From the NCBI GenBank assembly GCA_022457155.1, contig JAJGOT010000115.1, positions 1,548,501-1,612,500 of the forward strand: a stretch of DNA of 64,000 nt, given 5' to 3'. Within the stretch, counting starts at the first letter, position 1, and each line of letters begins with the position of its first letter. Position numbers and translations under genes: made by a program. This stretch comes from Cladopsammia gracilis (Eukaryota; Cnidaria; Anthozoa; Scleractinia; Dendrophylliidae). The notes beneath the pieces were generated by a model. That model was not told the origin of the DNA. It was given only the letters and a program-made list of their open reading frames with translations, and ran no database searches. This document shows positions 11,182 through 56,962 of the stretch, in pieces.

Positions 11182-12216
11182 ATGGAGGAAGATTCTCACG
11201 TCCTTAGCCCAACAGTTCACTACATCATCGCTTTCATCTACTTTTTCCTATCCTTCGCTTCATGTACGCTCAACTCAATTGTCATCCTGACCATCATAAT
11301 GGACCGCTCACTGTTGTTTCCCGCCAATATGTTGGTTCTCAGCATAGCTGTTTCTGATTGGCTTGTGGGCGTGGTGTCGGAGCCAATGGGTGGCGCTGCA
11401 AATGTGTCGACAGATTTTGCGTTCGGTGAAAAAACCTGCGCTTTTTACGCTTTCATCACTACTTTTCTGGGCCTGGGCACTATGTTACATCACGCTGCGT
11501 TTGCACTGGATCGATACTTGGTGATCACTCGACCAATGAAAGCCGAGCATTCTATGTCACGTGTGTTAACAGTGATTGCGTTCCTGTGGACTTTTGCCTT
11601 GCTATGGAGTCTCTTCCCTCTGTTGGGTTGGTCTGGTTATGCTCCCGAAGCTGGCAACATTGCCTGTTCCATCCGATGGCAATCAGGCCGCTCAACCGAT
11701 ACATCTTACATAATTTGTTTGTTCATCTTTTTCTACTTTGTGCCTCTAAGCATAATCGTGGCTTGTTACATCATGATGTTCAGAAATGTGCGTTACATGA
11801 CGAAGAATGCTCAAAGGATTTGGGGCGCAAACGCCGCTGCCACATTGGAAACCGTGCAAGCTTCATGGAAGATGGCAAAAACTGGGCTGGCAATGGTTCT
11901 CGGATTCTTCCTTGCGTGGACCCCGTATGCCACCGTATCATTCTACGCAGCCTTTGTTTCCGCCGAAGCCGTCCCCATTCTTGTGGCTGCTATCCCGGCG
12001 TTACTAGCCAAGACTTCCACTACATATAACCCGGTCATCTATTTCTTCACATACAAATCATTTCGCGAGAGCTTGATGAAAACATGGCGTCGATATCGGA
12101 ACCGGAACATGGTACAGCCAATACTCCACGCCAGCGGATCAGCCTTTGTTGTTAGCTCGAGAACCAGTAGGGTCAATGATTTTGGTTCCAGTTCAGTTGA
12201 AGAAGTAACTTTATAA
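11182..12216 (+). CDS. Cnidarian opsin (intronless)
   Basis: This is a 344-residue seven-transmembrane receptor and a probable light sensor of the plasma membrane. It shows the opsin hallmark lysine K277 (bovine K296 position) in AKTSTTYNPVIY. It also has N31 and D59 of helices 1 and 2, C86 and C162 for the conserved disulfide, a DRY triad (110-112), WTP in helix 6 (246-248) and NPVIY (283-287). The bovine E113 position is Y89, while E156 aligns with E181, so the ancestral Glu181 counterion is likely. The bovine NKQ tripeptide is YKS (291-293). N74 in NVS is a possible glycosylation site. The single exon is typical of many cnidarian opsins. Its subgroup (cnidopsin or anthozoan-specific) and G-protein partner cannot be decided by eye. 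The start is the first Met, about ten residues before helix 1. Confidence 0.96.
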   Translation: MEEDSHVLSPTVHYIIAFIYFFLSFASCTLNSIVILTIIMDRSLLFPANMLVLSIAVSDWLVGVVSEPMGGAANVSTDFAFGEKTCAFYAFITTFLGLGTMLHHAAFALDRYLVITRPMKAEHSMSRVLTVIAFLWTFALLWSLFPLLGWSGYAPEAGNIACSIRWQSGRSTDTSYIICLFIFFYFVPLSIIVACYIMMFRNVRYMTKNAQRIWGANAAATLETVQASWKMAKTGLAMVLGFFLAWTPYATVSFYAAFVSAEAVPILVAAIPALLAKTSTTYNPVIYFFTYKSFRESLMKTWRRYRNRNMVQPILHASGSAFVVSSRTSRVNDFGSSSVEEVTL

Positions 12217-19571: not shown

Positions 19572-19775
19572 ATGTTTCGAAGGCATATTTTTCTCTTTAC
19601 CATTTTTCTTCTTTTTTTAACGCCTTCGCTAGCTTTTGAAGAAGCCAGCAAGGCAAAAAATGGAAATCAAGTTCGTGAATTTGTAAATCATCAGCCTCCA
19701 TCTAAGACAATTTCTCAATGCATTTGCGGATTCACATCATTTAAATGTTGTCCTGCTAAGAGAACGCTTACAAAG
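19572..19775 (+). CDS. First exon, secreted cysteine-ring peptide precursor
   Basis: This exon encodes 68 residues. Residues 1-21 form a clear signal peptide (basic MFRRH, hydrophobic core, PSLA cleavage site). A polar propeptide (22-49) follows, then QCICGFTSFKCC (49-60) and PAKRTLTK with a possible dibasic site at K63-R64. The exon ends AAG|GTAAGT in phase 0. Later exons are unresolved: an acceptor at 19936 would add a 23-residue tail with one more cysteine, while one at 19995 would add 21 residues ending GKK. A diverged relative lies at 23384-23532. The ring start, ICG-hydrophobic-T, and the phase-0 lysine end resemble the peptide genes at 37 and 50 kb. Likely exported; function unknown. 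Confidence 0.6.
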
Positions 19776-22189: not shown

Positions 22190-22884
22190 TGTACAGTAGG
22201 GTCTTACAAAATAATTCACGGTCTGTGTTTGTATATATGGGATTAGTTGTAGATATAAGGATTAGTTGTAATTTAGTAATTGTCTCAGATATTTAATTTT
22301 AGATGTTTTTATTTAATTTTTAATTTTTTTTCTAGTCGAGCGTTTTTTACATGAGCCTCTGGCTCCGGAGACTTGGGCAACCATTCTCCACGTTTATGAC
22401 GTTATAATAAAGTTACTATTACTATTACTATTACTATTACTATTACTATTACTATTACTATTACTATTACTATTACTATTACTATTACTATTACTATTAC
22501 TATTACTATTACCATTACCATTACCATTACCATTACCATTACCATTACCATTACCATTACCATTACCATTACCATTACCATTACCATTACCATTACCATT
22601 ACCATTACCATTACCATTACCATTACTATTACTATTACTATTACTATTACTATTACCATTACCATTACCATTACCATTACCATTACCATTACCATTACCA
22701 TTACCATTACCATTACCATTACCATTACCATTACCATTACCATTACCATTACCATTACCATTACCATTACCATTACTATTACTATTACTATTACTATTAC
22801 TATTACTATTACTATTACTATTACTATTACTATTACTATTACTATTACTATTACTATTACTATTACTATTACTATTACTATTAC
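22190..22884 (+). repeat. Hexanucleotide satellite on a probable LINE tail
   Basis: 22411-22884 is an uninterrupted array of six-base units alternating between ACTATT and ACCATT variants in blocks: ACTATT to about 22510, ACCATT to about 22625, ACTATT to about 22655, ACCATT to about 22775, then ACTATT to the end. It directly follows AATAAAG at the end of a T-rich 200-bp stretch, as though it grew from a retrotransposon's simple-repeat tail. The long Met-Val minus frame is an artefact of the repeat. Confidence 0.85.
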
Positions 22885-36085: not shown

Positions 36086-36449
36086 AAGATAAAATTCACT
36101 CCGGAAATTGGTGGGTCAAATGGATGTTAACATTCAGCCCACGGTAATTTAATGGTCACCTGCCTTACTCATGGAGACGGCGTTGGAGGGAGGAGAGGGT
36201 GGGGAGTTGGATGCGGTGGTGGGGGGAGGGGGGGGGGGGGGGGGGAGTCGCCGAGGAGAGGGAAAGGTTCGATCGTTTCGTATGCGCGACTTGGCTCTAA
36301 GGAGCCTTTGATTATAGTTCCTGCTTATTCAACTTGTCAATAATTCTTACTTTTTATTGGGGCGTCTATATATATAGTGATATCTGTTAACAGCTCTAAA
36401 ACTGAGACTGATTCATCTTGATTAGATAAAATATATGTATAGTGTTGTG

Positions 36450-36455
36450 TTTATT
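36450..36455 (-). promoter_or_regulatory. Polyadenylation signal, peptide gene copy 1
   Basis: AATAAA on the minus strand, about 38 nt beyond the stop codon of the preprohormone-like gene. It supports a compact 3' end. Confidence 0.75.
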
Positions 36456-36492
36456 TCTTGTTAGTAACAGATTTATCTCCTGGTTAATAATC

Positions 36493-37478
36493 TTAGTTGT
36501 TTTCTTGTCTGTAAGGAGGAACTATAACATCAGTGCGTTTATCGGAGAATGGTCTCCATGGTGTTCCTAGTCTTCTTTTCTGAAAAATAGAAAAAAAGCG
36601 AATTGACAGAATTGAATTAAAAACTTTGTGATCTTACGTGCATACAAATCAGGCATAATTTTAGAAAGATAAAGTAACAATTCTCCAGAGAACGTAACAT
36701 CAACTGAAACTGAAACAACAAACAAAACCAAGATAAAAAGTTCTATTTTTTAGTTTTTCGTTTATTTTTGATACTACCTGTGCCTCCTAACCTACCTACC
36801 TACCTACCTACCTACCTACCTACCTACCTACCTACCTACCTACCTCCCTACCTACCTACCTACCTCCCTACCTACCTACCTACCTACCTACCTACCTACC
36901 TACCTACCTACCTACCAACCTACTTACCTACCTCCCTACCTACCTACCTACCTACATACCTACCTACCTACCTACCTACCTACCTACCTACCTACCTACC
37001 TACCTACCTACCTACCTACCTACCTACCTACCTCCCTACCTACCTACCTACCTACCTACCTACCTACCTACCTACCTACCTACCTACCTACCTACCTACC
37101 TACCTACCTACCTACCTACCTACCTACCTACCTACCTACCCAACCTTGTAACAACATGAAAATATCGCAGTTGACCTTGAAGCTTTGCTCTCGGCCAAAT
37201 GTTCGTATTTCGGACCATCTTGGCTAAACACGGACAAGCTTGTTCAACGATCTATGTTTGTGTTATATAGTTTATACCTTTCCACCGCTGTATGGACGAC
37301 ACACAAGGGTTAATCCACAGATCCTCTTGAACTTATTCTGCCGTTCGCTCGCTAACGCTTTACGCTCTTCCGTGGAGAATTCGTCGTTAACATTACGTAA
37401 AATCGGGGACGCTTTAACATCACTAGACATCAACGAAATGGCAGCGATTGTAAGTAATACTGCAGTTAAAAGATGCAT
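36493..37478 (-). CDS. Secreted peptide preprohormone-like gene, copy 1
   Basis: Two exons, 37478-37278 and 36579-36493, encode 95 residues. The 698-nt intron has donor AAG|GTATAA and a strong acceptor (TTTTTTTCTATTTTTCAG). Residues 1-23 are a signal peptide ending DVKA. A propeptide (24-50) ends at K51-R52. The ring peptide [13 protein letters not shown] (53-65) has a C-x5-C loop and is followed by G66 and KKRR (67-70), the classic amidation and prohormone-convertase site. [11 protein letters not shown]81-R82 and [13 protein letters not shown] complete the chain. Predicted product: a cyclic, C-terminally amidated secreted peptide. I recognise no named family. The basic cleavage site spans the exon junction. 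The intron carries a 350-bp tetranucleotide array. Confidence 0.85.
36788..37140 (+). repeat. CCTA tetranucleotide microsatellite
   Basis: About 88 near-perfect CCTA units with scattered variants (CCTC, CCAA, CATA) lie inside the intron of the copy-1 peptide gene. The long Leu-Pro-Thr-Tyr plus-strand frame is an artefact. Confidence 0.97.
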
Positions 37479-37799
37479 TGTGAAATTCTTTTTTGAAGTT
37501 CTAGTGGCTGCAAGGGATAAAATACATAAAAGTGTTATAACACGTACATCATGCCTGCATTGAGCTAATATTTGTCATGCCTATATTGGGCTAATATTTG
37601 TCTTGCCCATATTGGACAAATATTGGTCAAATCCTTCTTTGTGACTGTGTTGAATACAAAAGACAAGACCTAAGTGATATGGTTTGAAAACCAGACCCGA
37701 TAATGCACATTTTTGCTGTTAATGTGTCTTTCTTGGAAGTTGGCCAATAACAATAGCCTATCCATTCTCGGCGAGCACGCGACCAAATGTAAATACAAA

Positions 37800-38300
37800 C
37801 AACCGTTTAATCCCGGGGGGGAGGTACTCTGTATATTTTTGGGTGGTGATGTGCCACTGGGACTCTGAAACCCTTACCCTATATCAGACCATGTTAAGCT
37901 GATTTTGCGACCCTATACTAGACTCTACGGGGGGGAGGGAGGAGGGGGGTACTCTGTATATTTTTGGCTGCTGGGACTCTGAAACCCTTACCCTATACCA
38001 GACCATGTTCAGCTGATTTTGCAACCCTATTATTCTAGACTAGACACCGAAAATCCCTACTTTATACCAGACTTGCTATTTTTACAACTATCTCACTGGT
38101 AGTGTTTTTAATGGAAACCATCTGTCGACAGTGTTTCCGCGATGATCTTCTTTCTGTTTCGTTTAGGGAAGGCTCTTTGTTTTCCGAGTTTCAATTCCTA
38201 TTCTAGACTTAATTCTCAAATCACTCAGATCAGTTTCCCGTCAAATAATACCCTATTCTAGACCGAAACTCTCTGATTTCTATACCCTATTCCAGACTAA
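37800..38300 (+). repeat. About 115-bp tandem units upstream of peptide gene copy 1
   Basis: Two units carry GGGACTCTGAAACCCTTACC, CAGACCATGTT(A/C)AGCTGATTTTG, CCCTATACTAGACTCTACGG and a G-run with TACTCTGTATATTTTTGG. A third stretch is degraded. Related units are at 50040-50400 in copy 2. Confidence 0.7.
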
Positions 38301-38308
38301 ACTGCTTC

Positions 38309-38889
38309 TATATATATCCTATATTGGCGACATACCATTCAACACTCTAAGAAACTCGAATTTTATAATATCTTTAAGAACGAATATATGCCTTCTCATT
38401 ACTTAGACCTTACAAGGAAATCAAATGACAGAAAACAATTAGTAAAATTTCGTATAAGTAATCATAAATTAATGATTGAAATTGGTAGATATGAACAAAT
38501 CACAAGAGATGATAGATTGTGCCCTACTTGTGGAGGTAATGAAATTGAAGATGGAATTCACTTCCTTTTTCATTGTCCTAAATACTCAATTCTTAGGGAC
38601 GGATTTTATAGGAAAATAGGGTATCACCTACCAAATATAAAACAGTTATCTCCTTCAGAAGTAACCAATGAATTAATGAACTCTCGTAATTATTTTGTAA
38701 TTATTCAATTATTGAAATTCATTCTTTCATGCTTAGATTTCCACAATAATCAAATTATCAATCCAGACTGATGTATCTTAATTATACTTTCCCTTTCTTT
38801 GTTATACTATTGTAATTTTATTTTGTTATGTTGTAATGCTTTGCAATACTGTATGGATTTATAGTTATGCAAATAAAGCTACTTGTTGT
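38309..38889 (+). mobile_element. 5'-truncated non-LTR retrotransposon, copy 1 only
   Basis: The frame from before 38388 to 38771 encodes the C-terminal end of a LINE ORF2: HSKKLEFYNIFKNEY, a region with RKQLVKFRISNHKLMIEIGRY, and a zinc-knuckle-like CPTCGGNEIEDGIHFLFHC. A 3' region follows, ending GCAAATAAAG and a short TTG-like tail. TGCTTC flanks both sides (38303-38308, 38890-38895). The equivalent place in copy 2 (near 51488) has an unbroken CTAAACTGCTTC, so this insertion came after the duplication. The ORF2 fragment is open but lacks the endonuclease and reverse transcriptase. Confidence 0.85.
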
Positions 38890-39161
38890 TGCTTCAAAAC
38901 CATACCCTTTACAGCGGCACATACTTATATATAGCTTATGAGAGTACCTCCCCCGCGCGTTTAATACAGCAAACACCATAGTTGTAGGTAAATTAAACGG
39001 CAAAAGAAGTTTCTAAATGTTGTTGACACGATTTGTTTTCATTTGCACATTTTCTTCAAACACTAGTTTTGTCGTCAGCCTTAAATCAAGTGCATTATCT
39101 GCCAAAACACCGAAAACGTGTTTTATTATTCCAGTACACGTGTAAAGCCTGTTTTTCATGT

Positions 39162-39500
39162 GTCGGGGAAATCCCAGACGATCGGAGATTTTACTGTTTC
39201 CCGGCCGTCTCAGATTTTGCTGACAGGAAAATACGAAATCGTAGACATCCTCGATCATCTGGGATGAATCAGAAGAAACGGGAATGTTTCTCTTTCCCGA
39301 GGCATCCCAGATTTCTGCAATGATTTGGTACGTCAGCGATACGTTAAGCTCACTACCAAGACTCTATTTGGCAAAAACGTGCTCAGAAATTAAAATGGTG
39401 GACTTTGACCACATCATCTCCGATTTTACCGACACTTCTGTCCAATATAGGAAACGGTCGAGAAACAGCTAAAATCCCTGATCATCTGGCATTTTTCCCG
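39162..39500. repeat. Imperfect inverted-repeat element, shared by both copies
   Basis: TCGGGGAAATCCCAGACGATC at the left pairs imperfectly with GATCATCTGGCATTTTTCCCG at the right, and more GATCATCTGGGAT motifs lie inside. The same element is at 51763-52124 in copy 2, so it predates the duplication. Confidence 0.5.
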
Positions 39501-41960
39501 TCCAAAAACGCAACTTTGTGACTTGATATGTTTTGTTAATCTCCTAACCTGCGATCAGGAGTAGTTTGGACGAAGACAATGAAATCCGCAAAAACATTTC
39601 CACTTCTGCTGTCCACAGAACAGCGATAAATGTGCTTTTTCAGAAACATTTCCACTCAATTGAAACGAGTGTAGGTGGACTAAAACGTATGTTCTTTGTG
39701 TAGAGATGAAATCGTATATCATGCAGTCAATTGTTATGCGACTGCAAATATGTACAAGTTAATTAATAAGATCCGTTTCTTTATTTTGTCTATATTGGGT
39801 ACTAAAATTGATTCACGAGAAAGACTATTTTTGACGCAATATTACTCGAATGACAAAAAGGAACGCTGATTCAAAATCTATCAGTTCAAGGCAACACAGT
39901 TGAAACGGCAGATAACGGTTTTGAAATGTTTTGATCATTTTAGAATTGCGATTGACGCCTTAAGAGATCTTAAGAGAGCGGTGGCATGAGGATTTCTGTT
40001 CCTTTTATGACATTTGCTTGGAGTCATCAAACCTATATTTATTTGTTATTGCAGTTTTCTTTTTATTGCTGGTAGACAGAACACTACGTAAAATCTTTCT
40101 TTCGCGGCTGCAGTGTCATGTAGAGGCTAACGTAACGAGTTATTAACAACCTCGACAATTCTTAATTTCTCCGTCTGAAATTTTCTTTTCAGTAAGATGC
40201 ACTGAATAGACGATTTAACTTTATAATTGAAATGTTATCTCAAACATTTATTAACCTTGTTTCTTAGTGTTACCAATCCGATGAATTGTACACGCTCACT
40301 ACTAAATATATCTGATAACAAATGGAGCCAAATGAAAACCGAAAATTCAACTAAATGTAAAATAAATATAAATTCGTTCCCTTAAAAATTTCAAATGATT
40401 TTAATTTCATCGTTTGCTTATGATAAAGATTAAGCTGGAAAAATCGTTTTGGCTATTTCTTAGGCTTTTTTGTGTTTCCTTAAAGCGATAATATAGTGCC
40501 ATACATACCCTCGAATGGTTTTCTAGTCTTGACGGTTTCGTCGCCCAATCTGTGTTCTACCTTCCAGCACAGTTGTGGACTCTCCAGTGTACATAGATGT
40601 CACTTCAATCTTCAATATATAAAAGCAGCCAAAATGAAATTCCTCCCCTTCAATTTCCGCCGGTAACTCTAATTTACAACGTTGGAAAGAGCTTTTGTTG
40701 TAGCATTTCCTTTAGGTGTCGTTGTGTTTAAATTTTGTGACACATCTGTTGGCCGATAACGTATTTATTGTCCAAGCTGGTAATTAAAGATGAAAAGCTC
40801 GTAGGCCGTAAGGGTTTTGAACTATTATTGCCCGATTCTTAATTGAGTTGGCAGTTGAACGACGTACTACACGACAACTTCTCCATTTTATATTCAAACA
40901 CCTCCAAATAATATTTCCTCTTGTCATCTCCTGGTTGTTTCCCAAGATTGACTAAGTCTTAAGCTGCGGAATGTACTCATATTCTCGGTGTATTAAAGAT
41001 GGCCACCAACAAGAACATATTATCTGACTTAGTTTATTTCTACTCGTAAATATGTTTATACCAATTATTATCAGTTCATTTTTTGCGTGGGAGATTTGAA
41101 ATAGCTCGTTGAACTGAATGAGTCTACGAACACGTAATTATTTTCTCATTATGTTTTAACTAGAAACACAAATACATCCGAAAAGCCAAGACCCTTCTAG
41201 GGTTAAAAGTTCTGTTGAAAGCTAAAAAACCTTAACCAGTAACCACATTTTGTTTCGAGTCACAAATGCACTTATCCGAAGAATAAGATTTACAAAGGAT
41301 GAAAGTTGTTATAGGCGCATATATCGTACATTGCGAACTACCAACAACAGTCCAGTTTTCATTTCCAAATCCACCTGCTATTTCTTAAACACAAATGCTC
41401 ATCTAAAAACGGATTGTTCAATTCTTAATTTTCATCTTTTTTACGAATCACATATTTCAACATGTTGTAACACAAGACAAAAAGGTCGAACTGTATTTTG
41501 GACATATTTACAAAGAACACCATCTACAGTTAGATTTTTAACAATCATAATTTACTTCTTCGAAAAAAAGAAAAACTAGCCGTGTACTGTTGCATCTATT
41601 GCAAGTTATTCATACTCCAATCCGGCCTTTGAAATACCAATACCAACGACAATTTCTGTTCAATCATTTTAAATTTACTCCAAATATTTTAAAAGACAAA
41701 ACTTGGGACTCGAGGATTAAACTGGTGCTAGAGGATAACCAATAACCACGTTTTATCATCGGATTCATAGTTCTATAATCACCAATTCTTTAATATGAGA
41801 GAATCCTAAAAAATCAATTTGACTGTTCCGTCAAGAAAATTAGATTTCACGTAGAAAAAGTTGAAAAGTTCTATTTAAATTAAACTTGATGATTTGTGTG
41901 TTGTCGCAAGCTACTCAACAACGTTAGGTTTAAATTTCGTTCCAGGACTGAAATTGGGTA
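39501..41960. other. Duplicated but gene-free sequence
   Basis: This is collinear with about 52125-54390 in copy 2. Open frames (for example 41250-41579) are not kept in the other copy, which argues against coding function. Confidence 0.5.
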
Positions 41961-41961
41961 A

Positions 41962-42372
41962 AGGCCCTGTCACACTATTGCGTATTAAAGAAACGTATGA
42001 GTTGCGTATGAAAATTCATAAAATAATTTTCATACGCACAAAATTCCCTTGAAAATACAGCGTATGACCAGCGTACTTGACCTATGAGTAACGTAGCTTC
42101 AGCGCAACTCTCGCGTATTCAGCGTATGCCTAGCGTATGCTTAGCGAATAAACTATACGTCCGAATACGCACAAAATTTTTAAGCATGCTTAAAAATTTT
42201 GTGCGTATTCGGACGTATGCCAGCGTATGCCACCGTATGCGACCATGCTTGAAACGTATACAACCTATGCCTAACGTACCCCTAGCGTATGTCAGCGTAT
42301 ACCAACGTATGAGTGATATTTTTTCATACGCTGGCATACGCTAGTACGATACGCAATAGTGTGACAGGGCCA
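41962..42372. mobile_element. Harbinger-like MITE with 64-bp palindrome, copy 1 only
   Basis: The ends read GGCCCTGTCACACTATTGCG and its reverse complement, with TAA on both sides (41959-41961, 42373-42375). Copy 2 keeps GGGTAACGAG without the element (about 54383). TAA duplication suits PIF/Harbinger elements. The interior is packed with CGTATG/CATACG words, and a perfect 64-bp palindrome spans 42155-42218. There is no transposase. Confidence 0.88.
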
Positions 42373-43589
42373 TAAACGAGTCAACTAAAAGTACGTACAG
42401 TTCATGGCACGTATTGTTACTTAACGGTCACTATATATTTTTTTGAAGCATCTAAAGTTCTGGCACCTTTAAAAGTGATCACAAATGACTTGAAGCATTT
42501 GGGAAATTCGTCGCATACTAATAGAAAACTTAAACTTAATTTGACATACAGTTTCTTAACCTGTGTCTTACTGCGTAACTTATATATCTTTTTGGTTCTT
42601 GAAGACTATTTCCCGATCAAAATTCACACAAACAAACAAACAGACAGACAAAAATGTTTGTTCTAGCAAAAGAAGATGATGCTTTGACAACTAAACTGAA
42701 AAGCAATGAAACGTGCAAAAAAAAAAAACAATGAAAATGGAGGCAGGTTTATTTTAATTAAATTTTTGTCTGAAAGTAATGGCATATGTCCTTTAATGTT
42801 TTTTATAAGAACTCGGTGGTAAATTATGGCAAAATTCCCAAGCTTATTTCTTGTTTTAACTTTATTTTGTTTTTATAATCTTAATAACTTAAAAGTAATA
42901 CATGTAGTAACTTAATTTAGTTGTAAAATTGACTTTTAAGTTTAAGGAATACATGCAAAGATGTAACCGTTCAAATGAAAGCGTCTTTGAAGTATTTTCA
43001 TGTGGTACTGAAATTTTCTGGAAACTGGATGACTTAAAATCACTTTTAACTTGGCGCTATGAAGTGAAATTTAATATTAAAAGAAGCAATTAGAGAAAGA
43101 TCACCTTTTGAAAGTAGTAATAGTCTTGGGAGCTATGTTCAGTTTACAATTAAATATGTCAGCTGCCTTTCGCATGGAGTCATCAAAAGCTTTTGAAGTT
43201 GTGTTCTTATAAAAGCACCGTTACCTTGTATTTTCAATTTAACGGCTAACAAGCCTTGAGCCATGGGATCCAAGGACTTTAAAATGTCTTTCTTTCAGTG
43301 TAAAGTGAACGAAAACGCCTTCGGAGCAATAACGGACGAGAGCAACCAACATCCGTGCATATAAATGTTTATTTCACTGATAATTTGTTTAAATTAAATC
43401 CTCACCTGCAATCGCTGAAAGATACAAACGTGAAATTTCCAATTGTCGCAACAACAACAACAACAACAAAAAAATATATATATATATGAATTTTTTTAAT
43501 GCATTATATTTTATACACAAAACTAGTGATATCCTTCAGATTTTCCTATAGGGTATTAAGTTCAGGTCTACATCGCCATCTTAATTAAT

Positions 43590-44890
43590 TAACTTCCTCT
43601 TTTCATAGTGAAGTAACTATTAGAGAACAATAACAACAACTTGTTTTGTGGGTGCCAATGGGGAAGTGGGTAATGAAATGTTCAGAAATAATACTTTTTC
43701 CGCAGTACTGCTAGGTAAACATGTATCGGATAAAGCTTGCAGCCCATGGAGATGCAGACCGTGGATGGGTGAGGTAGTAGGGCCTCAGGTTGCACCCACA
43801 CGAAAGCACTCCTGCGTAGAGAGGAGGGAGTTAGGCCTCCTCTCTGATTGGAGAGAGTAGGGCCTCCTCTAACCTAGACCCGAGCAGTACAGAAAAACTG
43901 GAGGGAGTTGGGCCTCGAGAAACGAGTCTATGGGGGCAAAAGTGTGACGAGAGGAGCACTTCATCTCCATTCCCTTGTTCTTTATTGAGCGATCAAGTAA
44001 TATCAACTAATTATAAGGTATACGTAATTATCTAGACAAAGCCAGTTACGACTTCATTAATTTCGAAAAATTGGACTCCATTAAATCACCTACAGCCCAT
44101 GGAGATACAGACCGTGGATGGGTGAGGTAGTTGGGCCTCAGGTTGCACCCACACGAAAGCACTCCTGGGTAGAGAGGAGGGAGTTGGGCCTCCTCTCTGA
44201 TTGGAGGGAGTAGGGCCTCCTCTAACCTAGATGCGAGCAGTACACAATAACCATCCTATATGGAGGAGGTGTACACAAGAATAGCTAATAATATATAATA
44301 ACAATATATTCATTTCCTATTGTCTGGATATAACATTGTGGACGTCTTTTTTTATTATTATTATCTAATAATAGGGTACACTGAATAAAGTGAAGGGAAG
44401 CCTGAGCAGCGCGGTGGGTTGGGGAGGGGCACGATTTAGGAACTTGTGGCTCCGAGCACGAGGAATACAAGAATGAACGAGCATGCTCCGATCATGCCAT
44501 GAGATGACAGCACAAGAATTTCATTGGATGACACCACGTGGGGTGTGACTGGCTGTGTCACGCAAACCGGAAGGCACGTACGCCCCAGGCTTAACTACGC
44601 AATACAAGAGTTGTTAATTAACTATAATTTATTGCAGTGCTCCAATAAAATTAGGATATAAAGGGGCAGTATCACGAGGTCGAAACTTGAAAACGTCGGC
44701 CTACGTTTTCAAGTTTGATTCCGCAAATTCAAAAAGGCCGTCGAGAAGTGTAGGTATTTGTTGAATCAAAAAATCCGTTTTGATAGCCGGAAGAAAGAAA
44801 AAAATCACTTTTAACAGTGATATGTCCAAAATTCCGGTGCAAGAGTAGTGAACAGTGCCGCGCGTGGAATCTCGTGATACTGCCCCTTTA
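43590..44890. mobile_element. Composite insertion, copy 1 only
   Basis: Copy 2 reads straight through this point (CTTAATTAATAACCGCC near 55335). The insert holds two 151-bp direct repeats (43740-43890 and 44093-44243, starting CAGCCCATGGAGAT/CAGCCCATGGAGATGC and ending CGAGCAGTAC) and a terminal MITE at 44659-44890. Low-copy flanks of unknown origin fill the rest. Confidence 0.75.
44659..44890. mobile_element. MITE with AAAGGGGCAGTATCACGAG ends
   Basis: The terminal repeats are AAAGGGGCAGTATCACGAG and its exact reverse complement. AT-rich flanks allow a TA or TTA target duplication. An inner foldback (AACTTGAAAACGT/ACGTTTTCAAGTT) follows the left end at 44685-44717. Confidence 0.8.
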
Positions 44891-45565
44891 ATAACCGCCT
44901 TCTTAAAAGTCAAATACTGCTGTGCTGCATTTCTCAGTGAAGAATGAATTTACCTCGGCTCTTTTCTTTTTTATTTAGCTGCGTTTTGAATTCGTACTAA
45001 TTAAAACCGGTAAAACGGAAATTCATTGACAACCGCCTGGAACGAAAGTTTATTTAGAATATGTATTTGAAAAAATAAGTTTAAAACCCCTAAAACAAGG
45101 GTGGTACCATTCCTTTTGCGCTGTTTATTATTTATAGTTTTTAAGTGGTACGTCTCTTTGTTTTACGTTTTTTGAATGAGGAATGCAGCAGTTATTTCCA
45201 TTTCACGCCGTTTAGATAAATTTGTAGATATGTCTTTGCATTTTGTTTAATATTTAGTAGTTTCTAATTGCAATCGACTTTAAAAGTGCACTAACGATAT
45301 GCGACCTGTTTAAACTAAAATATATATTTATAAAGGGGTTAGTTTCTAAAGCAACTGAGGTGCCGCGTCGGCGGGAGAGTGAAGGACGAAAATTTGGTTG
45401 TCAAAAGCTGATGTTTCGAGCGCTAGCCCTTTGTCAGAGAGAAGGGCCAGCACTCGAAACATCAGCCTTTTAATGTCTTTACAGTGGCCAGTTTACCTTA
45501 TTAACTCAGTAACAGTTGATAAAACAAAATTTTCGTGTTAAAAATAAATTTAGTTTGTGTATGTT

Positions 45566-45860
45566 CACAGTATTTTTCAAAGAGTTAAAATAACTCCTAA
45601 AGTGAAGTTACATTAACTCCTTGCACTGGAGTTAATTTTTTCGGAGTTATTTCAACTCCAAAAAAGAGTTATTTTCCCCCAAAAAGCAGTTACCTTGCTG
45701 TATAGTAGAGTTAAATTAACTCCATTAGTGGTTGGAGTTATTTTAACCCCCAGATTCGGAGTAAATTTGGAGTTAAAATGACCCCAAAAAGGGTATTATC
45801 CTGAACCTAAAATTTTTACTCCACTTTTGGAGTTAAAATAACTCTTTGAAAATTGCAGTG
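45566..45860. mobile_element. MITE built of GGAGTTAAAATAACTCC motifs, copy 1 only
   Basis: The ends pair (CACAGTATTTTTCAAAGAG with the reverse complement of CTCTTTGAAAATTGCAGTG). The interior contains several forms of the small palindrome GAGTTA(N)TAACTC. Copy 2 lacks it near 56042. Confidence 0.8.
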
Positions 45861-45879
45861 TTTAATTTAATGTCCAAGA

Positions 45880-45985
45880 GGCCGATTACACGAGCTCGGG
45901 CTGGCTGGGTTAGCCGGGATGACTTTCAGCACGGTATTACATGAGACGAGCCAGCCACGGACTAGAGCTAAATTTAGCGTCAATT
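45880..45985. repeat. GGCTGGCTGGGTTAGCCGGGAT repeat, shared by both copies
   Basis: CGATTACACGAGC, a GGGCTGGCTGGGTTAGCCG block, GATGACTTTCAGC, CGGTATTACATG and GAGCCAGCC recur at 56058-56165 and, rearranged, in the element at 61011-61392. It is a dispersed transposon end family that was present before the duplication. Confidence 0.6.
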
Positions 45986-46599
45986 ATTGGCTGGATTGCT
46001 GATGTGTAAATAAAGGCAAAGCGTAGAATGTTGAAACAAAGATTTTTCCCAACGTTTTGGTTCATTTTTATCATACTTAAAGAACTGTCATAGTCTTGGT
46101 TTAGATAGTAAAATGACAACTTATACAAGCGAGCAGGTTTGCTCTAAAACAAAATACTTTTTTCGTTATCTGAAGTTTGTTTACAGTTTTTTTGAGTACA
46201 TTTAAATATAAGGTGATTCACGCTAAACGTTAAAACATGGAGTGAAACCATTTCATGTTTTCATAATGATTTATATTCCTTAATAAAAAAGGATTTATAT
46301 TCCTGTAAATACGACTCTTTGATACAACGTTTCATGCGGTTTTATAGGGCGAGAAACGGGTCTCATGAGGCCATATGGTTAACGCATGATTACGCATGAC
46401 AGGTCGCTAACCTGAGTCTGCACCTTCTGTAATAAATATGGCAGAAGCTCTTATATTTAACTTCAATGTTTGGAACACTAAAATCCCGAACATCATTAGG
46501 ACAGACCAGTTTACGAGAGTTTTAACTCTCAAAAGCGATAAAGATAAAAATCGACGAGAAATTGAACCCTCTTTTCTTTTTACAGAACGGATGATTCAT

Positions 46600-48600: not shown

Positions 48601-48903
48601 ATCCTTACTCATGGAGACGGCGTTGGAGGGAGGAGAGGGTGGGGAGTTGGATGCAGTGGTGCATGGGAGAGGGGGGGGGGAGGTGGAGTCGGTAGGGCAA
48701 AACACCTAGGAGAGGGGAAGGTTCGATCGTTTCGTATGCGCTACTTGGCTCTAAGGAGCCTTTGATTATAGTTCCTGCTTATTCAACTTGTCAATAATTC
48801 TTACTTTTTATTGGGGCGTTTCTGTATATAGTGATATCTGTTAACAGCTCTAAAACTGAGACTGATTCGTCTTGATTAGATAAAATATATGTATAGTGTT
48901 GTG

Positions 48904-48909
48904 TTTATT
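48904..48909 (-). promoter_or_regulatory. Polyadenylation signal, peptide gene copy 2
   Basis: AATAAA on the minus strand about 38 nt past the stop, in the same place as in copy 1. Confidence 0.75.
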
Positions 48910-48946
48910 TCTTGTTAGTAACAGATTTATCTCCTGGTTAATAATC

Positions 48947-49958
48947 TTAGTTGTTTTCTTGTCTGTAAGGAGGAACTATAACATCAGTGCGTTTATCGGA
49001 GAATGGTCTCCATGGTGTTCCTAGTCTTCTTTTCTGAAAAATAGAAAAAAAAAAGCGAATTGACAGAATTGAATTAAAAACTTTGTGATCTTACGTGCAT
49101 ACAAATCAGGCATAATTTTAGAAAGATAAAGTAACAATTCTCCAGAGAACGTAACATCAACTGAAACTTAGTAAACAACAAACAAAACCAAGATAAAAAG
49201 TTATATTGTTTCGTTTGCCCCACACTTGTTTATTTTTTATACTACCTGTACCTCCTAACCTACCTACCTACCTACCTACCTACCTACCTACCTACCTACC
49301 TACCTACCTACCTACCTACCTACCTACCCAACTACCTACCTACCTACCTACCTACCTACCTACCTACCTACCTACCTACCAACCCAACTACCTACCTACC
49401 TACCTACCTACCTACCTACCCAACTACCTACCTACAACCCACCCATCTATCCGCCTTTATTCTACCTACCTGCCTATCCAACAACCCACTTACCAACCAC
49501 CCACTTACCTTGCTACCTACCCACACCCATCCACACACACACCCACAAACCTGACAACCTGCCTACCTACCTACCTACCTACCTACCTACCTACCTACCT
49601 ACCTACCTACCTACCTATCTAACCTTGTAACAACATGAAAATTTCGTAGTTGACCTTGAAGCTTTGCTCCTCGGCCAAATGTTCATATTTCGGACCATCT
49701 TGGCTAAATACGGACAAGCTTGTTCAACGACCTATGTTTGTGTTATATAGTTTATACCTTTCCACCGCTGTGTGGGTGACACACAAGGGCTAATCCACAG
49801 ATCCTCTTGAACTTATTCTGCCGCTCGCTCGCTAACGCTTTACGTTCTTCCATGGAGAATTCGTCGTTAACATTACGTAAAATCGGGGACGCTTTAACAT
49901 CACTAGACATCAACGAAATGGCAGCGATTGTAAGTAATACTGCAGTTAAAAGCTGCAT
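48947..49958 (-). CDS. Secreted peptide preprohormone-like gene, copy 2
   Basis: Two exons, 49958-49758 and 49033-48947, encode 95 residues collinear with copy 1. Exon 2 is identical. Exon 1 differs at H2Q, T36M, T57A, R61H and Y63H. The signal peptide, the K51-R52 cleavage site, both ring cysteines (C54, C60), the Gly-Lys-Lys-Arg-Arg site and the donor and acceptor are all intact, so the predicted ring peptide is [18 protein letters not shown]. An in-frame upstream Met extends the open frame to 50087, but the Met at 49958 begins the signal peptide and matches copy 1. The intron carries a broken CCTA array. Likely a second active gene. Confidence 0.85.
49257..49619 (+). repeat. Interrupted CCTA microsatellite, copy 2
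   Basis: CCTA arrays at 49257-49436 and 49560-49619 are separated by about 120 bp of degenerate ACCCA/CCAAC-rich sequence. They lie inside the intron of the copy-2 peptide gene and correspond to 36788-37140. Confidence 0.95.
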
Positions 49959-50039
49959 TGTGAAATTCTTTTTTGAAGTTCTAGTGGCTGCAAGGGATAA
50001 AATACATAGAAGTGTTATAACACGTACATCATGCCTATA

Positions 50040-50400
50040 CTGTGAAATCCTTATCCTATACCAGACCGTGTTCAGCTGATTTTGCAACCCTATACTAGAC
50101 TCTACGGGGGTTGGGGGGAGGGGGGGGGGTACTCTGTATATTTTTGGGTGAGGGTGTGCCGCTGGGACTGTGAAATCCTTATCCCATACCAGACCATGTT
50201 CAGCTGATTTTGCAACCCTATACTAGACTCTACGGGGGGGAGGGGGGTGGGCACTCTGTATATTTTTGGGTGAGGGTGTGCCGCTGGGACTACCGAACCC
50301 TTAACCTACATGTATACACTGTACACGTACCAGACCATGTTCAGCTGATTTTGCAGCCCTATACTAGACTTGACACCGAAAATCACTACCCTATCCCAGA
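50040..50400 (+). repeat. Three 115-bp tandem units upstream of peptide gene copy 2
   Basis: The units match 37800-38050 (CAGACC(A/G)TGTTCAGCTGATTTTGC, CCCTATACTAGACT, G-run, TACTCTGTATATTTTTGGG). They start about 75 nt upstream of the ATG, much closer than in copy 1, because about 300 bp present there is missing here. Confidence 0.75.
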
Positions 50401-50647
50401 CTTGCTATTTTTACAACTGTATCACTGGTAGTGTTTTTACAGTCAAAATACTCAGCGCGTTCCGCGTATTATTTGGGAATGACTTTCATTAATCGGGAAC
50501 GGATGGCATTATTGAAATCAAAATTCAGATTTTAAATTGATTATTGGAATCCTCCAACGGTAGCCTCATTCGAAATAACGAATGTTGATGTTCAATTCAC
50601 TGATCAGTTTCCCGTCAAATAATACCCTATCTGATTTCTATACCCTA

Positions 50648-51482
50648 GTATGACGGCGCGAGCAATATGCTTGGTCATAAGAGCGCGTAGCTAAGAGAAT
50701 TCAGGACCTTCAACCGAAGGCTCATCTTACTCACTGTCATGTGCACTCATTAAGTTTAAGTGTGAAGGACACAGCAAAAAACTGTAAGTTGCTCTTAGAT
50801 ACAAGAAAAAGAAGATACAAGATAAGATACAAGCAAAAGATACAAAGATACAAGCAAAAGAAATCGTAACCCTCATAAAATTTTCTCCAAAACGGGAACA
50901 TCTACTTGGGGAAATAAAGGAAAACCTTCACGACGGATCTGCAGCTCGTAGCATTATAACCCTTTGTCCTACAAGATGGACGGTGCGGGCAAGGTTTGAA
51001 ATTGGAACGGGGGCCTCATCGCATCCTTCAACACCACGGGAACGTACGGGAACGTTACAGGCGCATATACTTTGAAGCGATTGACTTAATGGTCAACGCA
51101 ATTGACCGTCGTTTTAACCAAGCAAGTTTCAATGTGTATGCAAAGATGGAGTCTCTTTTAGTTAAGTGTCTAAACTCCCAGGACTTTTCAACCGAGTTAA
51201 AGTTTCTTGAAAGAAATTATCGAGATGATGTTCGGAATGAAATTCGCCATGTAATCGCATCAGACTTTCAGCCCTGGCTGAAAAGTGAATTTGGGCATGC
51301 GCAGTCGAATCTTCGACGCCATTTTGATTCTCGTTATCAATCTTCCCGCGCAATTTCAAACATGGCCCCCGGCTGAAATCTCAGCCCGAGCTGAAATTTG
51401 TCATGTAATCACAACGAAATTTCAGCCTGGTTGACCGGGCTGAAATCTCAACCCGGGCTGAAATTCGCCATGTAATCGGCCC
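50648..51482 (+). mobile_element. hAT-related insertion, copy 2 only
   Basis: Copy 1 reads TATACCCTATTCCAGACTAAACTGC where copy 2 has 830 extra bases. The insert includes a 126-codon frame (50996-51376) resembling part of a hAT-type transposase, and a right end made of GGCTGAAAT(C/T)TCA repeats with CCATGTAATC(G/A) motifs. Confidence 0.7.
50996..51376 (+). pseudogene. hAT-type transposase fragment
   Basis: The frame contains RYRRIYFEAIDLMVNAIDRR, FNQASFNVYAKMESLLVK and a SQDFSTELKFLERNY segment, a pattern I associate with ZMYM1-like or THAP/TTF-type hAT transposase-derived proteins. It covers only a small middle part. Catalytic and dimerisation regions are missing and the frame runs into terminal repeat sequence. 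Confidence 0.6.
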
Positions 51483-54400
51483 CTAAACTGCTTCAAAACC
51501 ATACCCTTTACAGCGGCACATACTTATATAGCTTATATATGAGAGTACCTCCCCCGCGCGTTTAATACAGCAAACACCATAGTTGTAGGTAAATTAAACG
51601 GCAAAAGAAATTTCTAAATGTTGTTGAAACGATTTGTTTCCATTTGCACATTTTCTTCAAACACTAGTTTTGTCGTCAGCCTTAAATCTAGTGCATTATC
51701 TGCCAAAACACTGAAAACATGATTTATTATTCCAGTGCACGTGTAAAGCCTGTTTTTCATGTGTCGGTGAAATCCCAGACGATCGGAGATTTTGCTGTTT
51801 CCCGGCCGTCTCAGATTTTGCTGGCGTGAAAATACGAAATCGTAGACATCCTCGATCATCTGGGATGGTCGGGGATGAATCAGAAGAAACGGGAATGTTT
51901 CTATTTTCCGAGGCATCCCAGATTTCTGCAATGATTTGGGACGTCGGCGATATGTTAAGCTCACTACCTACACTCTATTTGGCAAAAAAATGTGCTCAGA
52001 AATTAAAATGGAGGACTTTGACCACGTCTTCATCTTATCATCTCCGATTTTACCGACACTTCTGTCCAATATCGGGAACGGTCGAGAAACAGCTAAAATC
52101 CTTGATCATCTGGCATTTTTCCCGACCAAAAACGCAACTTTGTTGTGACTTGATCTGTTTTGTTAATCTCCTAACCTGCGATCAGGAGTAGTTTGGACGA
52201 AGACAATGAAATCCGAAATGAAAATGAAAACATTTCCATTTCAATCTGCTGTCCACAGAACAGCGATAAATGTGCTTTTTCAGAAACATTTCCACTCAAT
52301 TGAAACGTGTAGGTGGACTAAAACGTATGTTCTTTGTGTAGAGATGAAATCGTATATCACGCAGTCAATTGTTATGCGACGGCAAATATGTACAAGTTAA
52401 TTAATGAGATCCATTTCTTTATTTTATCTATATTGGCTACTAAAATTGATCCACGAGAAAGACTAGTTTTGACGCAATATTACTCGAATGAAGAAAAGGA
52501 ACGCTGATTCAAAATCTATCAGTTCAAGACAACACAGTTGAAACGGCAGATAATGGTTTTGAAATGTTTTGATCATTTTAGAATTGCGATTGCAATTGAC
52601 GCCTTATGAGAGCGGTGGCATGAGGATTTCTGTTTCTCTTTTGACATTTGCTTGGAGTCATCAAACCTATATCTTTTATTGCTCGTAGAGAGAACAGTAC
52701 GTAAAATCTTTGTTTGGCGGCTGCAGTGTCATGTAGAGGCTTACGTAACGAGTTATTAACAACCTCGACAATTCTTAATTCTCTGTCTGAAATTTTCTTT
52801 TCAGTAAGATGCACTGAATATACGATTTAACATTATAAGTGAAATGTTATCTCAAACATTTATTAACCTGAACGACATCTTGTTTCTTAGTGTTACCAAT
52901 CCGATGAATTGTACAAGCTCACTACTAAATATATCTGATAACAAATGGAGCCAAATGAAAAGTGAAAAATCTACTGAATGTAAAATAAATACAAATTCGT
53001 TCTCTTAAAAAAATGAAATGATTTTAATTTCATCGTTTGCTTATGATAAATATTAAGCCGGAGAAAAACGTTTTGGCTATTTCTTAGACTTTTTTGTGTT
53101 TCCTTAAAGCGATAATGTCGTGCCATACATACCCTCGAAAGGTTTTCTATTCTTGACAGTTTCGTCGCCCAATCTGTGTTCTACCTTCCAGCACAATTGT
53201 GTACTCTCCAGTGTACTTAGATGTCACTTCAATCTTCAATATATAAAAGCAGCCAAAATGAAATTCCTCCCCTTCAATTTCCGCCGGTAACGCTAATTTA
53301 CAACGCTGGAAAGAGCTTTTGTTCTAGCATTTCCTTTTGGTGTCGTTGTGTTTAAATTTTGTGACACATCTGTTGGCTGATAACGTAGTTATTGTCCAAG
53401 CTGGCAATTAAAGATGAAAAGCTCGTAGGCCGTAAGGTTTTAAGCCCGCTTCTTAATTGAGTTGGCAGTTGAATGACATACTACACGACAACTTTTTTTC
53501 CATTTTATATTCAAACACTTCCAAATAATATTTCCTCTTGTTATCTCCTGGTTGTTTCCCAAGATTGACTAAGTCTTAAGCTGCGGAATGTTCTCATATT
53601 CTCGGTGTATTAAAGATAGCAAACAACAAGAACATATTATCTGACTCAGTTTATTTCTTCTCGTACATATGTTTATACCAATTATAATTTCATTGCGTGG
53701 GAGATATGAAAAGGTTGGTGGCTCGTTGAACTGAATGAGTCTACGAATATGGCATTATTTTTGCATTCATGTTTTAACTTAGAAACACAAATACATTCGA
53801 AAAGCCAAGAACTTTCTAGGGTCGAATGTTGGTTAAATGTTCTGTTGAAAGCTAACAAAGCTTAGAACGTTGCAGTAACCACATTTTGTTTCGAACAAAA
53901 AATGCAGAAATATCCGAAGAATGGAATTTACAAAGGATGAAAGTTGTTATAGGCGCATATATCGTACATTGCGAACTACCAACAGCAGACCAATTTTCAC
54001 TTCCAAATCCACTTGCTCATTTAGAAATGGATCAGTGTTCAATTCTTAATTTTTATCTGTCTTACGAATCGCATATTTCAAAATGTTGTAACACAAGACA
54101 GAAAGGTCGAACTGTATCTTGGACGTAATTACAAAGAACACCATCTACAGTTATATTTTTTAGCATCCAGCACTTTTAACAATCATAAAACTTGAGACTT
54201 TAGGATTAAACTAGTACTCATCGGATTCATAATTCTAATCACCAATTCTTTAATGTGAGAGACGTGAAAAAAGTTGAAAAGTTATATTTAAAGAGATTTC
54301 AATTAATTAAACTTGATGATTTGTGTGTTGTCGCAAGCTACTCAACAACGTTATGTTTAAATTTCGTTCAAGAATTGAAATTGGGTAACGAGTCAACTAA

Positions 54401-56962
54401 AAGTGCGTGTTCATGGCACGTATTGTTACTAAACGGTCACCATATATTTTCTTGCAGCAGTCAAAGTTCCGGCACCTTTAAAAGTGATCACAAATGACTT
54501 GAAGCATTTGGGAAATTCGTCGCATACTAATAGAAAACTTAAACTTAATTTGGCATACAGTTTCCTAACCTGCGTCTTACTGCGTAACCTACATATCTTT
54601 TTGGTTCTTGAAGACTATTTCCCGATCACAATTCACACAAACAAACAGACAAAAATGTTTGTTCTAGCAAAAGAAGTACGTAGAAGTGATGCTTTGACAA
54701 CTAAAGAACTCCCCCCCCCCCCCCAAAAAAAAAAAAAAAAAAAAACAATGAAAATGAAGGCAGGTTTATTTAAATTTTTGTCTGAAAGTAATGGCATATG
54801 TCCTTAATGTTTTTTTTTTATAAGAACTCGGTAGTAAATTATGGCAAAATTCCCAAGCTTATTTCTTGTTTTAACTTTATTTTGTTTTTATAATCTTAAT
54901 AACTTAAAAGCAATACATGTAGTAACTTAATTTAGTTGTAAAATTGACTATTAAGTCTAAGGAATACATACAGAGATGTAACCGTTCAAATGAAAGCTTC
55001 TTTGAAGTATTTTCATGTGGTACTGATATTTTCTGGAAACTGGATGACTTAAAATAACTTTTAACTTGGCGCTATTGAAGTGAAATTTCTTTTGGTGAAG
55101 TGAACGAAAACTTCTTCGGAGCATGCAGTAACGGACGAGAGCAACCAACATCCATGCACATAAATGTTTATTTCACTGATAATTTGTTTAAATTAAATCC
55201 TCACCTGCAATCGCTGAAAGATACAAACGCGTAATTTCCAATTTTTAATGCATTATTTTTTATACACGAAACTAGTGATATCCTTCAGATTTTCCTGTGG
55301 GAAATTAAGTTTAAGTCTGCATCGCCATCTTAATTAATAACCGCCTTCTTAAAAGTCAAATACTGCTGTGCTGCACTTCTCAGCGCTGAAAAATGAAGTT
55401 ACTTCAGGCTCTTTTCTTTTTTTATTGAGCTGCTGACATACGTTTTGAATTCGTACTAATTAAAACCGGTAAAACGGAAATTCATTGACAACCGCCTGGA
55501 ACGAAAGTTCATTTAGAATATAATGTATTTGATGGAAAAAAAAAGTTTAAACCCCCTAAAACAAGGGTGGCACCATTCTTTATGCGAAGTTTATTATTTA
55601 TAATTTTTAAGTGGTACGTCTCTTTCTTTTACGTTCTCTGAATGAGGAATGCAGCGGTTATTTCCATTTCACGCCGTTTAGATAAATTTGTAGATATGTT
55701 TTTGCATTTTGTTTAAAATTTAATAGTTTCTAATTGCACTCGACTTTAAAAGTGCACTAACGATATGCCACCTGTTTAAACTAAAATCTATATTTATAAA
55801 GGGGTTAGTTTCTAAAGCAACTGTGGGCGGGAGAGTGAAGGACGAAATTGAAGTTGACCACCTTAAAAATATTCAAAACTGACGTTTCGAGCGCTAGCCC
55901 TTTGTCAGAGAGAAGGGCTATCGCTCGAAGCGTCAGCTTCTTTTAAATGTCTTTGCAGTCCCCAATTTACCATATCAACCCAGTAACACAGTTGATGAAA
56001 CCAAATTTCCGTGTTAAAAATATATTTAGTTTGTGTATGTTTATTAATGTACTGTCCAAGAGGCCGATTACACGAGCTCGGGCTGGCTGGGTTAGCCGGG
56101 ATGACTTTCAGCACGGTATTACATGGGACGAGCCAGCCACGGACTAGAGCTAAATTTAGCATCAATTAACGTTATTGGCTGGATTGCTCATGTGAAAATG
56201 AAGGCAAAGCGTAGAATGTTTAAACAAAGATTTTCCAACGTTTTGGTTCATTTTTATCATACTTAAAGAACTGTATAGTCTTGGTTGAGAAAGTAAAATG
56301 ATAACTTACATGCGAGCAGGTTTGCTCTAAAACAAAATACATTTTTCGTTGTCTGAAGTTTGTTTACAGTTTTTGAGTACATTTAAATATAATGTGATTC
56401 ACGCTAAACGTTAAAACATGGCGTGAAACCATTTCATGTTTTCATAGTGACTTTTCTTTTCTCCTCAATTCAAATGCAAATGCACTTGTTTAAACAAAAA
56501 TTCTTTGATAAAATCCAACTTCGCGGCAATACTTTTTTTGTGGTGCAATTCGTTTTTAAAGCATGCACGATGTTAATTTTACATTTTATTTCTTCATTTC
56601 TTGAAAGTAAAAAGGTTTATTCGAAAATATTGCGTGCCTATTTGTAAATAAACGCGTCTCTCGACAGATGATAATTGTTCAGGATTTATATTCCTGTAAA
56701 TACGACTCTTTGCTAGAACTTTTCATGCGGTTTTATAGGGCGAGAAACGGATCTCATGAGGCCATATGGTTAACTTATGATTACGCATGACAGGTCGCTA
56801 ACCTGAGTCTGCAACTTCTGTAATAAATATGGCAGAAGCTCTTATATTTAACTTCAATGTTTGGAACACTAAAATCCCGAACATCATTAGGACAGACCAG
56901 TTTACGAGAGTTTTAACTCTCAAAAGCGATAAAGATAAAAATCGATGAGAATTTGAACCCTC

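Follow-up and report, generated by a model that had tools for sequence, protein, structure and literature searches.

Amidated hormones with a cysteine ring are known from bilaterians in the form of oxytocin/vasopressin, CCAP, and calcitonin-type peptides. The rings of CCAP and of the calcitonin-type peptides are of the C-x5-C kind; oxytocin/vasopressin has a C-x4-C ring together with a neurophysin, and a helix-Pro-amide and an amide on a Cys are further features of this group of hormones. The Hym-301 peptide of Hydra also combines a C-x5-C ring with an amide.

The Hym301 family consists of short secreted precursors (87-106 aa) with a signal peptide and a role in tentacle formation; three members have a putative GKK amidation signal, and the C-terminal part has diverged (PMC2586386). 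Its genes have four exons, two of them lie within 70 kb, and the family is lineage-restricted, with homologs reported lacking outside Hydra and absent from Nematostella (PMC2586386). Scyphozoa and Cubozoa encode cyclic FRamides (CXXXMCWFRamide), predicted Cys-ring amides whose precursors contain basic sites, and these were reported absent from Octocorallia and Staurozoa (PMC6909153). Ring amides are few in the cnidarian literature consulted (PMC6909153, PMC8638164, PMC7523074). The families treated in the hexacoral survey are linear, and the words “cyclic,” “cysteine,” and “disulfide” are absent from its main text (PMC7523074). Dibasic cutting and the conversion of Gly to an amide have been reported from mass spectrometry of Nematostella, for which 15 new precursors were presented (PMC11087051). 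Larvae of corals have abundant, taxon-restricted, Cys-bearing short secreted proteins, for which an antimicrobial or adhesive role has been suggested (PMC12225738).

Here we describe a locus in a stretch of 64,000 nucleotides of the coral Cladopsammia gracilis (the window) and in the contig around it, which contains a gene for a predicted cyclic, amidated peptide (gene A), its tandem copy (gene B), and several divergent relatives (Table 1).

Organization of Gene A

Gene A very likely encodes a secreted, processed precursor, judging from its sequence. The frame starts with an ATG at 37478, stays open until the codons GGT GGA AAG at 37278 and is followed by the GT donor (37277-37276). The acceptor AG (36581-36580) is preceded by a T-rich tract, the 84-nt second exon covers 36579-36496, and a TAA follows at 36495-36493; the intron has a length of 698 nt and lies in phase 0. 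Exon 1 ends at Gly-Gly-Lys codons, with the dibasic/amidation site being completed by exon 2. The joined product has 95 aa, and its peptides are bounded by K-R and KKRR sites. The ring peptide has dibasic sites on both flanks and a Gly available for amidation, all of this read from the sequence alone. Hydropathy and the -3/-1 rule served to recognize the signal peptides of the precursors. The computed [M+H]+ of the amidated ring peptide with a single disulfide is 1378.697 for A and 1303.640 for B; that of the predicted second peptide, from exon 2, is 1175.584. An AlphaFold2 model of the exon 1 protein, based on an alignment of two sequences, had a mean pLDDT of 61.6, too low for interpretation. 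Upstream, an AG at 37509-37508 is a likely further 3' splice site, which would leave 29 nt of UTR ahead of the ATG; the 5' UTR is thus probably also split by an intron.

The sequence-only reading had described a signal-peptide exon joined through a phase-0 GT-AG intron to a 28-codon exon with a stop and an AATAAA, which proved exact when the sequence was re-read. The Gly-Lys-Lys-Arg-Arg site that it saw being completed by the join, after a C-x5-C ring preceded by Lys-Arg, is likewise present. Its proposal that a gene with two coding exons encodes a precursor for the secretory pathway, in which sites for a convertase and for amidation surround this ring, is supported.

We compared the window with 120 order-2 Markov resamplings, using patterns defined after the gene had been seen. 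Signal-like ORFs with a dibasic site and a Cys pair occur twice (A and B) versus a mean of 0.05 per resampled window. The same two also have a G-[KR] beside a GT donor, a combination found in none of the 120 resamplings. Plain signal-like ORFs number 21 in the window, against a mean of 6.9 after resampling.

Table 1. Positions of the features of the locus. Coordinates are those of the window, except for gene C, which is given in its flank piece.
Feature	Position	Strand	Remarks
Exon 1 of gene A (signal peptide and pro-region, then KR and ring)	37278..37478	-	open frame, GT donor at 37277
Gene A intron, phase-0 GT-AG	36580..37277	-	mostly TAGG tandem repeat; dispersed repeat in 3' part
Gene A exon 2 and stop	36493..36579	-	0/84 coding differences vs. 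copy B
Gene A AATAAA polyadenylation signal	36450..36455	-	kept in copy B
Likely 3' splice site CAG, gene A 5' UTR	37508..37510	-	kept in copy B
Gene B exon 1 (tandem copy, ring)	49758..49958	-	near-identical to A
Gene B exon 2 with stop	48947..49033	-	protein identical to exon 2 of gene A
Exon 1 of gene K1 (signal peptide; four-Cys ring ...CICGFTSFKCCPAKRTLTK; GTAAGT donor)	19572..19775	+	
Candidate exon 2 of gene K1 (SSVFYMSLWLRRLGQPFSTFMTL-stop with an overlapping AATAAA)	22336..22407	+	one of nine phase-0 candidates
K2, decayed K1-related piece: CICGVTSWTCCEKQPKLLK then GTAAGT	23443..23532	+	stop upstream, signal peptide absent in frame
Gene C, 5 kb outside the window	L036:5146-5370 and 6507-6596	+	exon 2 acceptor chosen

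Long TAGG/CCTA tetranucleotide arrays occupy part of the introns of A (36771-37150) and B (about 49250-49620), and similar arrays occur at many other places in the genome. Next to exon 2, the intron of gene A contains a dispersed repeat (36609-36753) with at least 13 other genomic copies that are 75-84% identical; inspection of 5 of the 13 places revealed no precursor beside the repeat.

The window contains other ORFs on the forward strand. An intronless opsin-like GPCR of 344 aa is encoded at 11182-12216, in keeping with an animal source; it matches Pfam 7tm_1 at E 3.6e-45, and its top sequence hit in PDB is 4ww3 (Rhodopsin). Two adjoining ORFs (31301-31750 and 32684-33103) are 38% alike and share a WNPWSxxIPY core, with no Pfam model above cut-off. 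The ORF at 26580-26855 resembles a first coding exon and has no Pfam match. The ORF at 38301-38768 has a CPTCG...H...C pattern, which we take to resemble the tail of the reverse transcriptases of non-LTR retrotransposons; Pfam gave nothing significant for it.

A Tandem Copy With Changes Concentrated in the Ring

Gene A had been presented as an undescribed gene for an amidated ring peptide, and as a gene it stands; however, it is not alone, since a near-identical copy (B) and six divergent ring modules lie on the same contig. Genes A and B belong to a direct segmental duplication of ~10 kb (36163-46571 vs. 48603-56962), the pieces of which are 73-97% identical. Both copies have an uninterrupted frame and have retained the donor and acceptor of the intron, the acceptor in the 5' UTR, and the AATAAA.

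Of the 95 residues, 5 differ between the two proteins, three of them within the 13-residue ring peptide (P = 0.017 by residue). At the DNA level, 4 of the 39 ring bases differ, compared with 4 of the 249 bases in the remaining coding sequence (P 0.014). Outside the gene, 322 of 5467 aligned block bases differ (counted outside 36300-37556, gaps excluded), a figure that is rough because the alignment of a few short repeats at 37.8-38.1 kb is ambiguous. Against this background, the coding sequence has changed less (8/288; Fisher P 0.026), also when the ring codons are left out (4/249; P 0.0019); the rate of change in the ring does not significantly exceed that of the block (4/39; P 0.29). The NG86 estimates are dN 0.023 and dS 0.049. 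Exon 1 (8/201) has diverged to the same degree as the intron flanks (5/128 and 8/203). Exon 1 is thus no better kept than its flanks, and it is the unchanged exon 2, together with the lower divergence relative to the block as a whole, that argues for constraint. Together, these substitution counts suggest that the precursor outside the ring is under constraint.

Divergent Relatives on the Same Contig

Further ring modules were found both inside and outside the window. K1 has the four-Cys ring CICGFTSFKCC, followed by a phase-0 GTAAGT donor. Its candidate exon 2 reads ...WLRRLGQPFSTFMTL-stop and, among nine candidates, shares the top rank for its pyrimidine tract with one other. An alternative acceptor before 19996 (...NSGKK-stop) was dropped in favor of the one at 22336, a choice based on its top pyrimidine score and the RRLGQPFS core. 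The first exon of gene C encodes a signal peptide, KR-GGGSRSACGFSWRC-KRRR..., and SFW-GKR at the donor, with a very basic stretch downstream of the ring; by the sites chosen, exon 2 reads TGIPYQSAAFSLGSDDFDK...stop. As in gene A, a pyrimidine tract and an AG immediately precede the ATG of gene C.

A genome tblastn with exon 1 of K1 yielded E at 1740536 (E 3.7e-9, 44%) and a weak match with a stop at 1744665 (E 0.009). D, at 1724381, matches K1 with an E-value of only 4.2 but encodes the ring ...NCCGFTWTCCLGKKR... and a donor. A ring piece, G, reads CICEVTSWLCC-stop at about 1742.6 kb. D, E, and G stand about 112-130 kb beyond the window, and the cluster extends from 1568072 to about 1742.7 kb of the contig. 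We read directly the 60-kb flanks on each side of the window and the stretches around D, E, and G; the parts before 1488501, at 1672501-1719699 and 1725995-1739035, and beyond 1745800 were covered by genome searches only.

The members have in common a cysteine ring on C-x-[FLVI]-[TSA], to which the readable next exons (A, B, K1, and C) add [LT]GxP...FS. The K-type members (K1, K2, D, E, and G) have four-cysteine rings, and K1, E, and D align through REF...C[x]C[GE][FI]T...CC...K. A CG[FLV][TS] ring, a phase-0 intron after the ring, and an exon-2 [LT]GxP...FS occur together in A, K1, and C, where exon 2 of K1 and C depends on the chosen acceptors. B departs from the ring motif with an Ala for [ST], and E and G have a Glu for the Gly. 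The exon-2 core is LGxP...FS in A, recurs as such in K1, and reads TGIP...FS in C; the position of the intron relative to [LT]GxP shifts by up to about 12 residues among A, C, and K1.

The family motifs and the K-type profile were defined after the relatives had been seen. In shuffling tests, P was 0.001-0.002 for C with K1, 0.022-0.033 for A with C, and 0.019-0.036 for A with K1. On the K-type profile, built from five ring pieces, the score of A was reached by 8 of 1000 shuffles and that of C by 1 of 1000; B scored 1.0 bit, which 91 of 1000 shuffles reached. A signal-peptide ORF with CG[hydrophobic][ST]x1-4C and a phase-0 donor occurs three times in 144 kb (A, K1, and C) versus never in 60 simulations, B being missed because of its Ala. 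The bare ring motif is present at six places in 184 kb, two of which (40574 and 64645) lack a donor and seem to be chance occurrences. In all six frames of 184 kb, dibasic-[LTIVM]GxP-x0-5-F[ST] is found at three places, namely exon 2 of A, B, and K1; TGIPYQSAAFS of C falls outside this count, as its dibasic site lies across the intron. The looser motif dibasic-xGxP[WFY] also hits one unrelated place in 144 kb (71244).

Common descent of K1, E, D, K2, and G is nearly sure from their sequences, and that of A/B with K1 and C is likely on the same grounds. The members differ in their processing sites. A, B, C, and D show a G-basic site in the ring region, either directly at the ring or close to it, as an amidated ring product would require; K1, E, G, and K2 show none at the ring.

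Searches for Relatives and Earlier Descriptions

In the 878-Mb assembly (1469 contigs), tblastn with A and with K1 revealed no convincing relative outside this contig. The precursor of A retrieved A, B, and one locus at E 4.7 on contig C1100, which was rejected for its collagen-like frames. Exon 1 of K1 gave seven matches (K1 itself, three more on the same contig, and three on others), and the off-contig ones (E 0.68, 2.8, and 9.1) were taken as chance. A DNA search of the assembly (at least 60 matches; best 40 of 63 candidates scored) returned, among the matches listed, A, B, TAGG repeats, and the dispersed repeat of the intron. A pattern search of the genome yielded background only (54 matches vs. 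56 with the reversed pattern), and both exon-1 proteins had no confirmed counterpart in other genome and viral contigs (83 and 39 pattern matches). A search for the COX1 family, aimed at the mitochondrial genome, had no match.

Pfam gave no family above cut-off for A, B, K1, C, D, and E, the weak hits for E and C (E 0.07-0.45) being under the cut-off and taken as chance. The PDB sequence search with A and K1 had no match, nor did a full-text literature search with twelve ring/core strings, which reaches printed letters only. The initial impression that gene A fits no named family was thus borne out in Pfam, PDB, and full text. On the basis of these two databases and of sequences printed in papers, we provisionally consider the family previously undescribed.

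Possible Function of the Ring Peptides

We favor, at a little above even confidence, the view that gene A belongs to a clustered, diverging family of secreted precursors whose rings serve as extracellular signals. The signaling role is favored because of the similar outline of the Hydra Hym301 family. The gene anatomy, the duplication, and the relatives are seen in the DNA, and from these we infer splicing, secretion, processing, ring closure, and signaling as follows. The signal peptide would route the 95-residue product into the secretory pathway, where the two cysteines of the A or B ring would close a disulfide. A prohormone convertase may then cut at KR and KKRR, a carboxypeptidase may trim the basic residues, and PAM would convert the terminal Gly to an amide, giving a cyclic amidated ring peptide in A and in B. 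A second peptide, carrying the LGxP...FS core, might be excised from exon 2. Similar to Hym301, the rings would be epithelial or neurosecretory peptides that are restricted to their lineage and act on membrane receptors, and duplication together with ring changes could create variant ligands.

Host-defense (antimicrobial) or venom peptides, which are also small, disulfide-ringed, and tandemly duplicated with changing mature parts, offer a possible though less probable explanation. It is a live rival because of the ring substitutions (four of the eight between A and B), the very basic stretch behind the ring of C, and the lack of an amidation site at the rings of K1, E, G, and K2. The variation from two to four cysteines and the clustering on one contig fit it as well, as do the Cys-bearing short secreted proteins of coral larvae, where an antimicrobial role was among those suggested (PMC12225738). 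The peptides of A and B, however, are short and hardly charged, and their rings are flanked on both sides by convertase and amidation sites. A shared second peptide in exon 2 would be unexpected for a toxin, the ring has not changed significantly faster than the surrounding block (P 0.29), and Pfam offers no model above cut-off.

A structural or adhesive product (matrix, mucus, or larval attachment) in which the dibasic sites are incidental seems improbable: larval adhesion was suggested for taxon-restricted short secreted proteins of this kind (PMC12225738), but the precursor is very small and devoid of repeats, and A, B, C, and D have G-basic sites adjoining the ring or in its vicinity. That gene A and its relatives are chance frames or pseudogenes is very improbable, since the equal divergence of exon 1 and the intron flanks and the decay of K2 are outweighed by the far fewer such ORFs in simulations, the same anatomy in divergent relatives, and the intactness of both A and B.

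A wider reading, which we hold at less than even confidence, takes in the whole locus. The ~175 kb may hold a single undescribed family of cyclic secreted peptides from one ancestor, with amidated two-Cys members (A, B, and C), a four-Cys member with an amidation site (D), and four-Cys members without a site at the ring (K1, E, and G). With its changing ring residues, it could be a ligand family in the course of diversification, possibly switching between hormone-like and defense- or venom-like use. If expressed, these genes would supply ready synthetic ligands for orphan receptors, and the locus would be a test case for how one duplicated locus yields diverged ligands or moves between signaling and defense.

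Comparison With Known Ring and Amidated Peptides

Gene A differs from the bilaterian ring hormones. Its ring is C-x5-C instead of the C-x4-C of oxytocin/vasopressin, and a neurophysin is lacking (no Pfam match); it also has no helix-Pro-amide, and its predicted amide is not on a Cys. The cyclic FRamides have a C-x4-C ring and end in WFR-amide, whereas gene A has C-x5-C and a predicted SG-amide, leaving only the cysteines in common (PMC6909153). The cyclic GPPCRWGCamide of Clytia is also a Cys-ring amide, but with C-x3-C and in an RWGamide precursor with several peptides (PMC8638164). The hexacoral Antho-RWamide and phenyllactyl precursors likewise contain one amidated peptide each, with several related precursors per species; these peptides differ in being linear, in following directly behind the signal sequence, and in having other C-termini (PMC7523074). 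The Hym301 genes have four exons (PMC2586386); in gene A, two coding exons and a likely splice site in the 5' UTR are seen. As in the Hym301 family, the locus combines small secreted precursors, putative amidation signals, and clustering, a likeness of outline (PMC2586386).
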